From contig CACNXQ010000003.1 of NCBI GenBank assembly GCA_902624455.1, forward strand, positions 103,029 through 167,028: a stretch of DNA of 64,000 nt, read 5' to 3'. This stretch comes from an uncultured Pelagibacteraceae bacterium. GTDB lineage: Bacteria; Pseudomonadota; Alphaproteobacteria; Pelagibacterales; AG-422-B15. The notes under the pieces were generated by a model. The model made no database searches. It was not told the DNA's origin and saw only the letters and a program-made list of their open reading frames with translations. A program made the position numbers and the translations under genes. The number at the start of each line of letters is the position of its first letter. The first letter of the stretch is position 1. Shown here in pieces: positions 37,929 to 58,572 of the stretch.

Positions 37929-39308
37929 ATGAAAAAATGGACTGCAAATAGTTGGAGAAACTTCGAGGCAAAGCATCTGCCAGAATATCCAGATCAATCA
38001 AAGCTGGATAAAACTGAGGCAGAGCTAAAAACATATCCACCACTTGTTTTTGCTGGTGAAGCTCGCGAACTCAAGAATAACCTAGCTGAAGTATCGGAAG
38101 GAAAAGCTTTTTTATTACAAGGCGGCGATTGCGCTGAAAGTTTTGAAGATTTTAATGCTGATTACATAAGAGATACCTTTAAAGTTTTATTACAAATGTC
38201 AGTTACTCTAACTGCAGCTGGTAATGTACCGGTAGTAAAAGTTGGACGTATGGCTGGACAATTTGCGAAACCAAGAAGTGCTCCTAAAGAAGAAATCGAT
38301 GGTATTGAATTAGACAGCTACAAAGGCGACATCATAAACGATATGGCTTTTAATGAAGAAGCCCGAGTACCTGACCCAAATCGTATGTTAAGAGCTTATA
38401 CTCAATCTGCTGCGACTTTAAATTTATTAAGAGCGTTTGCGAAAGGTGGTTTCTCGGATTTAAATAAAGTTCATCAATGGAATATGGGTTTTGTTGATGA
38501 AAGTCCTCAAGGAAAAAAATTCAGAGAGCTTGCAGACAAGATTTCAGACACACTAGCATTTATGGGAGCCATTGGTATCTCTTCAAAAACATCACGAAGA
38601 TTAAGAGCAGTTGATTTTTATACAAGTCATGAAGCACTTTTATTACCATATGAAGAGTGTCTCACAAGATTAGATAGTACTTCAGGTGAAGTATACGATA
38701 CATCGGCTCACATGGTTTGGATTGGTGATAGAACTCGTGATCCAAAAGGTGCACACGTTGAATTTTGTAGGGGGATAAAAAATCCAATAGGTATTAAATG
38801 CGGCCCATCTTTAGATCCTGATGAACTGAAAGAGTTGCTAGACATTTTAAATCCAGAAAATGAAGCTGGACGTATCACTCTTATCTGTCGATTTGGTTCT
38901 GAGCAAGTTACAGAATCTTTACCTAAATTAATCAAGCCATTTATAAATAGTGACCATAAGCTTGTGTGGTCATGCGATCCGATGCATGGAAATACTATGA
39001 AAGCCAATTCAGGTTTTAAAACAAGACCGTTTGAGAGTGTTTTAAAAGAAGTTAAGGAATTTTTTGATATTCATCATAGTTTTGGAACTTATCCTGGTGG
39101 TGTTCATCTTGAGATGACAGGCCAAAATGTTACTGAATGTATTGGTGGAGCTCAAGCAATAAAAGATGACGATCTTTCTGCTAGATACCATACGCATTGT
39201 GATCCACGATTAAATGCTAACCAAGCATTAGAGCTTGCTTTCTTGATCTCAGACAGACTAAAAGAGTCAAAAGATCACAATAAATCAAACATTATAATTG
39301 CCAAGTAA
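37929..39308 (+). CDS. Class II 3-deoxy-7-phosphoheptulonate (DAHP) synthase
   Basis: [53 protein letters not shown]. Confidence 0.96.
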
Positions 39309-39343
39309 TTGCTACTAAATTATTTAGTTGTAGTATCACTGAA

Positions 39344-39409
39344 ATGAGAGAAAAAATTTCTATATTAATTTGCCAAACAAACCCTACAGTTGGGGATATG
39401 GATAATTAA
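39344..39409 (+). pseudogene. nadE: Apparent remnant of glutamine-dependent NAD synthetase (N-terminal nitrilase domain start)
   Basis: MREKISILICQTNPTVGDMDN* resembles the start of alphaproteobacterial NadE (pattern ...LAQxNPTVGDIxGN); stop lies 1 nt before the gltX ATG. Confidence 0.6.
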
Positions 39410-39410
39410 T

Positions 39411-40739
39411 ATGACAGTGATTACAAGATTTGCTCCTAGTCCAACAGGACTGTTACATTTAGGTAATATACGTACGGCACTAATTAATTGGTTATATGCA
39501 AGAACTCATAATGGAAAATTCATATTGAGAATAGATGATACAGATCAAGAGAGATCAAAAGATGAGTATATTTCAAAAATAAAATATGACCTTGAATGGT
39601 TAGGTATCGACTATGATGATACATTCAATCAATCTTCAAGATTTGAGAGATACCGCGAACAGTTTGAAAAGCTTAAAGCTGATGGAAGAATTTATCCATG
39701 TTACGAAACACCAGAAGAACTTGAAAGAAAAAGAAAACTGCAAATGGCATCTGGTGGTAAACAAGTCTATGATAGAACATCATTAAGTCTCACTGATGAA
39801 GAAAAAAGGGGATATGAAGATGATGGAAGAAAGCCTCATTGGAGATTTTTGCTTCAAACGGAGAGACTAAAATGGAATGACCTTCTAAAAGGAGAGCTTG
39901 ATATTGATTTAACAAGCTTATCAGATCCTGTGCTTTTTAGAGAAGATGGTGTTCCACTATACACGTTTTCCTCTGCAGTTGATGATATTGATTATAATAT
40001 TACGAATGTCATCAGAGGTGACGATCATACTAGTAACACAGCAGTTCAAATTGAAATTATAAATGCAATCGATAAGAATAGGATAACTTTTGCACACCAT
40101 GCATTATTAAAAGCATCAAGTGGAGATAAATTATCCAAGAGAGATAATGTGATATCTATTGATAGTTTTAGAAAATCTAATCTTGAACCACTTGCTATTC
40201 TTAGTTTGCTCGCAACAATAGGAACATCTCAATCTATTGAACTTAAAGATAGCTTAAATCAAATTATTAGCGAATTTAAACTCGAAACAATTTCAACATC
40301 ACCAGGGAGAATTGAAATTGATGTTTTAAATGCATTAAATAAAAAGCAGGTTCAAAAGTTAAACTTTGATGATGTGAGTGAAAGATTAAAAAATATTGAT
40401 GAAAAAATTGATGAGAAGTTTTGGAACACAATTAGGAGTAATCTTGAAACAGTGGAGGGTGTTAAACAGTGGTCTGATATTGTTTTTGATAGCAAGTTAA
40501 TAGAGGCTGAGGATAAAGAATATATTAAGTCTGCTATGGAACTTATACCTGATGATCCATGGGATGAAAATACATGGGAATTGTGGACAACTGCAATAAA
40601 GGAAAAAACTGGAAGAAAAGGTAAGGAACTGTTCCTTCCTTTACGTGAAGCGTTTACTGGAATGAGTCATGGTCCTGAAATGAAGCTTTTAATTCAACTA
40701 ATAGGAAGAGAAAAAATTTTAGAGAGAGTAAAAACTTAA
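39411..40739 (+). CDS. gltX: Glutamyl-tRNA synthetase
   Basis: RFAPSPTGLLHLGNIRTAL, KLSKRDN; start trimmed to MTVITRFAPSPTG. Confidence 0.96.
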   Translation: MTVITRFAPSPTGLLHLGNIRTALINWLYARTHNGKFILRIDDTDQERSKDEYISKIKYDLEWLGIDYDDTFNQSSRFERYREQFEKLKADGRIYPCYETPEELERKRKLQMASGGKQVYDRTSLSLTDEEKRGYEDDGRKPHWRFLLQTERLKWNDLLKGELDIDLTSLSDPVLFREDGVPLYTFSSAVDDIDYNITNVIRGDDHTSNTAVQIEIINAIDKNRITFAHHALLKASSGDKLSKRDNVISIDSFRKSNLEPLAILSLLATIGTSQSIELKDSLNQIISEFKLETISTSPGRIEIDVLNALNKKQVQKLNFDDVSERLKNIDEKIDEKFWNTIRSNLETVEGVKQWSDIVFDSKLIEAEDKEYIKSAMELIPDDPWDENTWELWTTAIKEKTGRKGKELFLPLREAFTGMSHGPEMKLLIQLIGREKILERVKT

Positions 40740-42101
40740 ATGCCTTTACAAATTTACGATACTTTTTCAAATGAAAAAAAGCTATTTGAACCTATCGATC
40801 CTTCAAATGTAAGGATGTATGTGTGTGGCCCTACAGTCTATGATTTTCCTCATGTAGGCAATGCAAGACCAGTTATTGTTTTTGATCTATTATTTAGATT
40901 GTTAAGAAGAATATATGGCAATGATAATGTCACTTACGTTCGAAATATAACAGATGTAGATGACAAGATAATTACTGCAGCAAGTGAAAATAATGAAGAC
41001 ATAAAATCCCTTACTGAAAGAACAATTAAATTCTTCCATGATGATGCTGACTACATTGGTGCTTTAAAACCTACATTTGAACCAAAAGCGACTGATTATA
41101 TCAATGATATGATAGACATTATAAGTAGCCTCATTGAGAAAGATTATGCTTATGTGTCAGAGGATAACGTGTTGTTTTCAGCAAGTAAGTTTTCAAAATA
41201 TGGCCAACTTTCAGGAAAAAATTTAGAGGAAATGATAGCTGGATCACGTGTAGAGGTTGAGAGTTTTAAAAGGAGTTCGTCAGACTTTGTTCTTTGGAAA
41301 CCATCAAAGTCTAGTGAACCTGGATGGGATAGTCCCTGGGGCAAAGGTAGACCCGGATGGCATATTGAATGTTCTGCTATGAGTGAAAAACTTCTAGGAA
41401 AAAATTTTGATATCCACGGGGGTGGACAAGACTTAATATTTCCTCATCATGAAAATGAAATTGCTCAGAGTGAGTGTGCAAATAATGAAAAATTTGCAAA
41501 TTTTTGGTTACATAACGGCTTCGTTAATGTTGAAGGCAATAAAATGTCAAAATCAGAAGGAAATTTTGTAACCGTTAATCAATTAAAGCAAAAATATCAA
41601 GGAGAAGTTATAAGATTGGCAATGATCTCTACTCATTATAGACAACCACTTAATTGGACTGAGAATAACTTAATCGAATGTAAAAAAACCTTAGATAAAT
41701 GGTATCAACTGATTTCCGAAAATAATTTTTCTTTTGATAATGAAAAAATCAGCAGCGAGGTCATCAATGCTTTAGAGGATGATCTTAATACACCAAAAGC
41801 TATCAGTGTTCTTCATCAATTGTATAAAGATTGTAAAAGCAATGATAGAAATACAGTTGAGACCTTTTTAAGTTCTGCAAACTTTCTAGGAATGCTTATG
41901 CATACCTCCTCTGAATGGTTATCATGGGGTAAAGAAAAATTAAGTATAGACGAAAAACAGATTGAATTATTAATTTCTGAGAGGAAAAGCGCAAGAGATA
42001 ATGGTAATTTTGATAAAGCCGACAAAATAAGAAACGATCTCGAACATAAAGGCATTTTGCTCGAGGACAATGAAGGTAAAACAACTTGGAGATTTAAATA
42101 G
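40740..42101 (+). CDS. cysS: Cysteinyl-tRNA synthetase
   Basis: YVCGPTVYDFPHVGNARP, GWHIECSAMSEKLLG, GGQDLIFPHHENEIAQSE, KMSKSEGNF. Confidence 0.97.
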   Translation: MPLQIYDTFSNEKKLFEPIDPSNVRMYVCGPTVYDFPHVGNARPVIVFDLLFRLLRRIYGNDNVTYVRNITDVDDKIITAASENNEDIKSLTERTIKFFHDDADYIGALKPTFEPKATDYINDMIDIISSLIEKDYAYVSEDNVLFSASKFSKYGQLSGKNLEEMIAGSRVEVESFKRSSSDFVLWKPSKSSEPGWDSPWGKGRPGWHIECSAMSEKLLGKNFDIHGGGQDLIFPHHENEIAQSECANNEKFANFWLHNGFVNVEGNKMSKSEGNFVTVNQLKQKYQGEVIRLAMISTHYRQPLNWTENNLIECKKTLDKWYQLISENNFSFDNEKISSEVINALEDDLNTPKAISVLHQLYKDCKSNDRNTVETFLSSANFLGMLMHTSSEWLSWGKEKLSIDEKQIELLISERKSARDNGNFDKADKIRNDLEHKGILLEDNEGKTTWRFK

Positions 42102-56686: not shown

Positions 56687-57808
56687 ATGAGAGTATTTTT
56701 TATTATTTTTTTTATTTTTATATTTAATTCTATAAAACCTGCACTTGCAGAAGGAACAGGCTTACTTCAGTCTATTGATGATCTTAAGTCGTGCAGTGAT
56801 GATGACGATACTGATGCATGTGATGGCCAGTGTGCTACTAACGAATCAGGAGCAATTATAATTGCGAGTAACGGGCTACCTTATGACGCTGATAATTCAA
56901 CTTCTTATAGAGACTCGTGCAATATGATTCCTGATTTTTATCGAGTAACCCTATATAAAGGAGGACTGTGTATTTCAGACCCATATACTTCGGAGTCTAC
57001 TGTTGATTATACAACTAATTGTGACTTATTCTTTAATGATGCAAATGGAAAAGTAATTACTTTAACAAATCAAGGCGACGGAACTGCAACTGCAAGCCCC
57101 TCCCTTGTTGAAAATGGCATTAATCTTGGTATCAAAACTTACACTCATGCGTTTATGGTAATGAGTAATCATTTGCAGATTAAACATCAACAAGCCTATG
57201 ATTTTACTGGAACTGAAACCTCTGATGAGATGCGGGGTGGAGACGTAAGTTCTGCAGCACTTCCACGATTAAATGACCAAGCAACTGGAGGTATTGTCTG
57301 CTGGACAGTAGATAGGACTTCTACTTTTTCAAATTTGGATGGAGTCACTGGCACTAATCATGGTGAAGTTATCTTGAGAACTGGGAATGGAAATCCAAGT
57401 GAAGCAAGTACAAAATGTGGATCAGTGGTTGATGAGACGTATGATTATGCTACTGAGATTATTGAGTCGTTTGGAGAAGCAAGTGGAAATTGGGGAGACA
57501 GCGAAGTCACTGCAAAATGGCCTTATGCAGAATCAAGCATTGACATTGGAGGAACAAAAGCTGCAATATTATTACAATCAAATCTAACAGAAGTAGCAAC
57601 CACTATGGAAAATGCTGTTGCAATGCTATATGCCGTAAATCTTACAAATCCATTAGAGATTACTGAAAATACAAATCAATTTAATATAGAATTTGGACTA
57701 TCTGGGTCTGTAAGTATTGACTTTACAACTCAAAATAGCACCCCTGAATATCTCATGATCTCTAAGCATGGGGCTGACCCTGTTGATATAAGGTTTTCTG
57801 CTAATTAA
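56687..57808 (+). CDS. Secreted cysteine-containing hypothetical protein
   Basis: Signal peptide MRVFFIIFFIFIFNSIKPALAEG; eight Cys in the mature region; Ser/Thr/Asn-rich; directly follows the beta-barrel gene. Confidence 0.75.
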   Translation: MRVFFIIFFIFIFNSIKPALAEGTGLLQSIDDLKSCSDDDDTDACDGQCATNESGAIIIASNGLPYDADNSTSYRDSCNMIPDFYRVTLYKGGLCISDPYTSESTVDYTTNCDLFFNDANGKVITLTNQGDGTATASPSLVENGINLGIKTYTHAFMVMSNHLQIKHQQAYDFTGTETSDEMRGGDVSSAALPRLNDQATGGIVCWTVDRTSTFSNLDGVTGTNHGEVILRTGNGNPSEASTKCGSVVDETYDYATEIIESFGEASGNWGDSEVTAKWPYAESSIDIGGTKAAILLQSNLTEVATTMENAVAMLYAVNLTNPLEITENTNQFNIEFGLSGSVSIDFTTQNSTPEYLMISKHGADPVDIRFSAN

Positions 57809-58572
57809 AATTTAAATTGTTCGTTTAGTATCCGTTCTTCAAAAGAATGTTGCTCATCAAATAAAAGTTCTATTGCATGATCATTATCCTGCTTAACAGT
57901 AACACTTTGAACATCTCTAAATTCAATGCTGTCAGCAACTGCACTCACTGGTCTCTTCTTGAAATCGTGGACCTCAAAAGTAACCTCAGCTGTATTATCC
58001 AAGATTGCTCCCTTCCATCTTCGAGGCCTGAATGCACTTATTGGGGTTAGGGCTAAAACATCTGCATTTATTGGAAGTATTGGTCCGTGCGCAGATAAAT
58101 TATAAGCAGTACTTCCAGATGGTGTGCAGACTAATACGCCGTCACAAATAAGTTCGTCGATCCTGACTTTACCATCAATTGATATTTTAATTTTTGCTGC
58201 TTGATGCATTTCTCTTAAAAGAGAAACTTCATTAATTGCCATTGCAGTATGTTCTTTGCCATCTGGTGTTAAAGCACTCATCTTTAGGGGTGAAATTGTT
58301 ATAGATTGTGATGCATTAACTCGATCTATTAAGTCAAGATCATTTGAAGCGTTCATTAGAAACCCTACACTACCGTGATTTATGCCAAAGATTGGTAATT
58401 TATGATCCATGTTTGATTTCATAGTCTCAAGCATAAAACCATCACCGCCTAAAGCAATAATCGCTTCTGCGCCATCGATAGCATATGAACCATATTTTTT
58501 CTCAAAAATATCTTTATGTTTTTGAGCATCATTATTTTCTGAAGCTAAAAAATGTAACTTTTGTATTGTCAT
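57805..58572 (-). CDS. nadK: NAD kinase
   Basis: IALGGDGFMLETM; GINHGSVGFLMN; CTPSGSTAYNLSAHGPIL. Confidence 0.94.
   Translation of the reverse strand: MTIQKLHFLASENNDAQKHKDIFEKKYGSYAIDGAEAIIALGGDGFMLETMKSNMDHKLPIFGINHGSVGFLMNASNDLDLIDRVNASQSITISPLKMSALTPDGKEHTAMAINEVSLLREMHQAAKIKISIDGKVRIDELICDGVLVCTPSGSTAYNLSAHGPILPINADVLALTPISAFRPRRWKGAILDNTAEVTFEVHDFKKRPVSAVADSIEFRDVQSVTVKQDNDHAIELLFDEQHSFEERILNEQFKF

Follow-up and report, generated by a model that had tools for sequence, protein, structure and literature searches.

A nadE relic beside gltX and an apparently foreign NAD synthetase in the surface-polysaccharide island of a Pelagibacteraceae genome

Gain, loss, and transfer have been described for the forms of NAD synthetase (PMC3376133). 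In xenologous gene displacement, the acquisition of a distant family member is followed by loss of the resident enzyme. Among the glutamine-dependent enzymes, NAD inhibits the NadE2Gln of Azospirillum, Herbaspirillum, and Synechocystis, and PII lifts this inhibition, while the NadE of M. tuberculosis belongs to another group (PMC7196632). In SAR11, the hypervariable region HVR2 adjoins the rRNA genes and holds 48 kb of genes for surface polysaccharides, and there is evidence that recombination has exchanged it there (PMC2217521). The Pelagibacteraceae genome described here touches on all three systems: it carries a relic of a NadE2Gln gene at the ancestral nadE site, and an NAD synthetase of the M. 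tuberculosis type within a polysaccharide island next to its rRNA operon. A literature search retrieved no prior description of this nadE relic and replacement.

Positions 39344-39409 (+ strand) of the window, i.e., the whole stretch of 64,000 nucleotides that was analyzed, hold a 66-nt open reading frame of 21 codons, MREKISILICQTNPTVGDMDN followed by a stop, which is wedged between aroG and gltX and terminates 1 nt ahead of the gltX ATG at 39411 (Table 1). By its length alone, a frame of 21 codons is unremarkable in an AT-rich window. Upon alignment with the NadE N-terminus of a relative, 13 of 17 residues were identical, a score attained by only this one of the 2473 ATG starts in the window (runner-up, 7). 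Because the score is unique and the frame sits exactly where relatives carry nadE, flanked to the left by the conserved spacer and to the right by the nadE stop and gltX, we consider its homology to the NadE N-terminus not to be due to chance. A preliminary description had proposed an apparent 21-codon nadE remnant between the DAHP synthase gene and gltX, and the reading frame, its NadE homology, and its position all hold. That description had correctly matched the N-terminal part to NadE but overlooked that the last four codons and the stop are the nadE C-terminus.

Table 1. Features of the relic locus and of the second NAD synthetase gene. Positions are those of the window, except for the last row (genome:contig:positions).
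Feature	Position	Strand	Evidence and remarks
aroG, class II DAHP synthase, left flank	37929..39308	+	NCBIfam TIGR01358, 695.6 bits; left of nadE in all members of the order read
Spacer, aroG stop to nadE start, with hairpin	39306..39346	+	Hairpin is conserved across the family; in this genome, a T.T mismatch at 39313 weakens it
nadE N-terminal remnant, codons 1-17 (MREKISILICQTNPTVG)	39344..39394	+	Aligns without gaps to the start of nadE in 17 relatives
Deletion junction	39395..39399	+	Both ends of the relatives' nadE compared column by column; ATAT (39396-39399) agrees with either side
nadE C-terminal remnant, final four codons plus the native stop (DMDN, stop)	39395..39409	+	Relatives DMEN, DKEK, or DREN, each followed by the stop
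gltX, glutamyl-tRNA synthetase, intact, right flank	39411..40739	+	NCBIfam TIGR00464, 361 bits; N-terminus aligns with relatives
cysS, next in the conserved cluster	40740..42101	+	Gene order
NAD synthetase of 647 aa, M. tuberculosis-type NadE1Gln	G000:C1:340289-342232		NF002730

The composition of the relic became legible from both of its ends. Read ungapped from the start codon, the window tracks the nadE of relatives through GTTGGG and then again in ATAT (to 39399), while, read backwards from the stop, it tracks nadE from GATATGGA (39395) onward, such that the tail GAT ATG GAT AAT TAA corresponds to the nadE C-terminus (...RDMEN and stop in relatives, ...DMDN and stop in the window). This comparison places the breakpoint in, or adjoining, the ATAT at 39396-39399, and identifies the relic as codons 1-17 of nadE fused to its final four codons and its original stop; in between, 527-528 codons (~1.58 kb) are gone in frame. 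Judging from the sequences of relatives, the deletion was probably mediated by a short microhomology of the ATAT type. The relic lacks both the glutaminase and the synthetase domain, and its 21 residues alone gave no Pfam or NCBIfam match, as expected at such a short length; by its sequence, it is a gene remnant and not an enzyme. A search for the exact junction pattern in viral contigs gave no match.

Relatives carry the complete gene at this site. We searched 39 genomes with the junction DNA, and most genomes of the same genus showed two separate matches ~1.6 kb apart, one ending at query base ~200-206 and the other starting at ~188-212. At all 17 loci of the genus that were fetched, the gap proved to hold an uninterrupted nadE, 548-549 codons long, that ends directly at the gltX ATG, and the order aroG-nadE-gltX-cysS recurred in one further member of the genus and in six genomes of other genera of the family. 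Overall, an intact nadE of 548-551 aa lies exactly in this slot in all family members read for gene order (24 of 24), which bears out the earlier proposal that an internal deletion removed nadE while sparing its start and frame. Of the 297 genomes of the order that were searched, 52 belong to the family, and 43 of these have nadE of the 548-aa type. A search for gltX in the other nine, run without a positive control of its own, found none, though the gltX query gene readily turns up next to nadE in the family members whose gene order was read; such a joint absence is what incomplete assemblies lacking this locus would show. In a tree of GltX proteins, the genome falls within its genus clade (support, 100/99), with nadE-bearing genera branching outside. 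It follows that the ancestor had nadE and that its loss is derived, having occurred on the branch of this genome. No second genome with the same deletion was found among the relatives searched, and the junction is known from one assembly.

In the sister family, all nine genomes read showed the order aroG-nadE-cysS-cimA, with a NadE of either ~552 aa or ~245 aa, the latter of the ammonia type. At these loci (L167-L174 and L176), the longer of the two enzymes between aroG and cysS (~552 aa) is a NadE2Gln, the shorter one (245 aa) is of the ammonia type, and gltX lies outside the cluster. The aroG-cysS slot seems to be a hot spot of NadE turnover. Separately, eleven sister-family genomes that are ~90% complete or more (G083, G094, G096, G125, G131, G145, G163, G171, G174, G178, and G181) yielded no NAD synthetase domain at E <= 1e-10, through either incompleteness or real loss.

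Searching the rest of the genome, as the preliminary description had suggested, revealed a single other NAD synthetase. A PF02540 search of this 99%-complete genome returned one NAD synthetase proper, in a 655-codon frame on contig C1; two further weak matches were read from their sequences as GuaA and MnmA and were set aside. The 647-aa protein scored 814.3 bits against NF002730 (PRK02628) over residues 5-647, where the equivalog cut-off is 473, while the lost type of NadE (NadE2Gln, PRK13981) scores best on NF010588 and is 25% identical to it. Residues 6-645 align with M. tuberculosis NadE (3dla), with FPEL, PK..LP, EICED, and SGGLDST conserved, and in this alignment the Glu/Lys/Cys glutaminase residues of the nitrilase domain and the SGGxDS ATP loop are intact; the roles of these catalytic residues are those we take over from M. 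tuberculosis NadE. The protein is accordingly named NadE1Gln by sequence, a predicted glutamine-dependent NAD synthetase of the octameric type. Within the order, it occurs in this genome alone (1 of 117 genomes), and within the class in 19 of 289 genomes including this one, with a best identity of 45%. In the databases, its nearest relatives share 52-53% identity with it and come from several phyla, and a 99-row tree gave no supported sister group that would point to a donor. We read the 647-aa gene as horizontally acquired.

The gene lies between those for a DegT-type aminotransferase and a nucleotide-sugar epimerase, in an island of ~49 kb on C1 (~315.4 to 364.9 kb) that comprises sugar-nucleotide, glycosyltransferase, and export genes. 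The island starts right after an unsplit 16S-tRNA-tRNA-23S-5S operon and is flanked by housekeeping genes. One gene was tested on each side and both have homologues in relatives, which gives the contig a native appearance. Immediately ahead of the rRNA operon lies a 430-aa gene found in other family members, for which near-complete G039 gave only a weak partial match. Like SAR11 HVR2 (PMC2217521), the island thus presents ~48-49 kb of surface-polysaccharide genes next to an rRNA operon; unlike HVR2, it follows an unsplit 16S-23S-5S operon and holds what is apparently the cell's only NAD synthetase. Genome size, base composition, and gene order suggest a SAR11-like organism.

The genome encodes nadA and nadC on contig C4 and nadK in the window, where, as described earlier, nadK is intact as an open NAD kinase frame (57805-58572, - strand). 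Given these genes, de novo NAD synthesis needs a NadE. The earlier suggestion that NAD comes from another nadE copy or from salvage stands in its first half, as one foreign NAD synthetase is present; a supply from salvage only need not be assumed, because nadA, nadC, and nadK are there. The acquired enzyme is by sequence of the octameric M. tuberculosis type, whereas the lost one was of the dimeric type of 540-550 aa (PMC7196632). Inhibition by NAD and its relief by PII are traits of the NadE2Gln of the three bacteria tested (PMC7196632). The lost enzyme may have shared them and the new one may not, so that the swap from NadE2Gln to NadE1Gln may have changed the regulation of NAD synthesis. 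This genome has a PII gene, as do five family members that were tested. In the sister family, G032 and G036 showed no PII match, and G032 nonetheless carries NadE2Gln.

What is directly established is the relic, the intact ancestral gene, the single foreign copy, and its location: the resident gene was lost in this lineage alone, and its replacement is absent from relatives and of distant origin. We consider it very probable that relic and foreign copy together record a xenologous displacement of NadE2Gln by an acquired NadE1Gln, followed by near-complete deletion of the resident gene. The lineage would have taken up the 647-aa NadE1Gln by horizontal transfer into its surface-polysaccharide island, the transfer, we infer, preceding the loss. 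The resident nadE, of the dimeric NadE2Gln type, would then have lost its ~1.58 kb in frame, probably via recombination at a short microhomology, a deletion tolerated because a different glutamine-dependent NAD synthetase had already been acquired. The foreign enzyme would now make NAD from NaAD, being presumably active and sufficient, and the relic would be neutral save for keeping the translation-start context of gltX.

That last role could be taken further, with the relic kept as a functional upstream reading frame, or leader, that couples or regulates gltX translation. It retains its start codon, its frame, and a stop 1 nt before gltX, the in-frame fusion preserves the nadE-gltX layout, and the tail includes a possible ribosome-binding stretch for gltX (GGAT, ~8 nt upstream; the 16S 3' end carries CCTCC). 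A random deletion is nevertheless in frame one time in three, and the nadE stop already touches gltX in relatives, such that a new function need not be invoked: the deletion left the layout as it had been, with nadE abutting gltX (between the relic stop and gltX, the window has one T more than same-genus relatives). The differences between the relic and relatives, such as five synonymous and seven non-synonymous ones against G010, resemble those among the relatives themselves and are thus probably older than the deletion. Furthermore, the upstream hairpin is weakened in this genome. In the family, the 35-nt aroG-nadE spacer forms an 11-pair hairpin (39309-39334 in the window), in which 92% of cells are paired (<=54% in slid controls) and compensatory changes affect both sides of two pairs; three relatives gave a z of about -4, and the window gave -0.7 owing to one mismatch. 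Such weakening would be expected if constraint had relaxed once nadE was lost, although, as one substitution, it is weak evidence. On balance, we regard a leader function as improbable. Scanning the spacer gave promoter-like matches at chance level and no terminator-like site. A TTG at 39390 was considered as an alternative gltX start and discarded, as the GltX of relatives begins at the ATG matching 39411.

We rate two other readings lower still. The 647-aa protein might serve the polysaccharide pathway, as its aminotransferase and epimerase neighbors could suggest, with NAD drawn from salvage of amidated precursors; this is very unlikely given a full-length equivalog match far above the cut-off with catalytic motifs present, and given nadA and nadC, which imply de novo synthesis as far as NaAD and with it a need for NadE. 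The junction might also be an artefact of a draft assembly of 15 contigs, the real genome having a full nadE. Yet no native nadE fragment occurs elsewhere in this genome (99.1% complete, 0.01% contaminated), the contig extends over 176 kb with conserved gene order, a junction repeat of a few bases is presumably too short for a typical repeat collapse, and the sole genome without the native nadE is also the sole one with the foreign NAD synthetase, so that we give an artefact hardly any credence.

Xenologous displacement of an essential enzyme is a known kind of event, and gain, loss, and transfer are on record for NAD synthetase (PMC3376133). The present case is an unusually legible example: both ends of the displaced gene can still be read, which assigns the loss to one lineage and locates the breakpoint. 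The swap of an essential enzyme is thereby documented from both sides, by the remnant of the old gene and by the foreign gene that succeeded it. It is conceivable, if doubtful, that the polysaccharide island has become indispensable because it carries the sole NAD synthetase, its replacement by a relative's island through recombination at the rRNA genes being barred unless the incoming island brings a nadE, which would lock a normally exchangeable surface locus. Across the order, the slot occurs in three states (ammonia-type NadE, NadE2Gln, and empty), and the turnover of NAD synthetase can hence be studied there directly. By its sequence, this genome appears to rely on a foreign NAD synthetase in a variable surface island, which would mean that, in a lineage of small, streamlined genomes, a core metabolic function has moved into the region that is the most exchangeable in SAR11.
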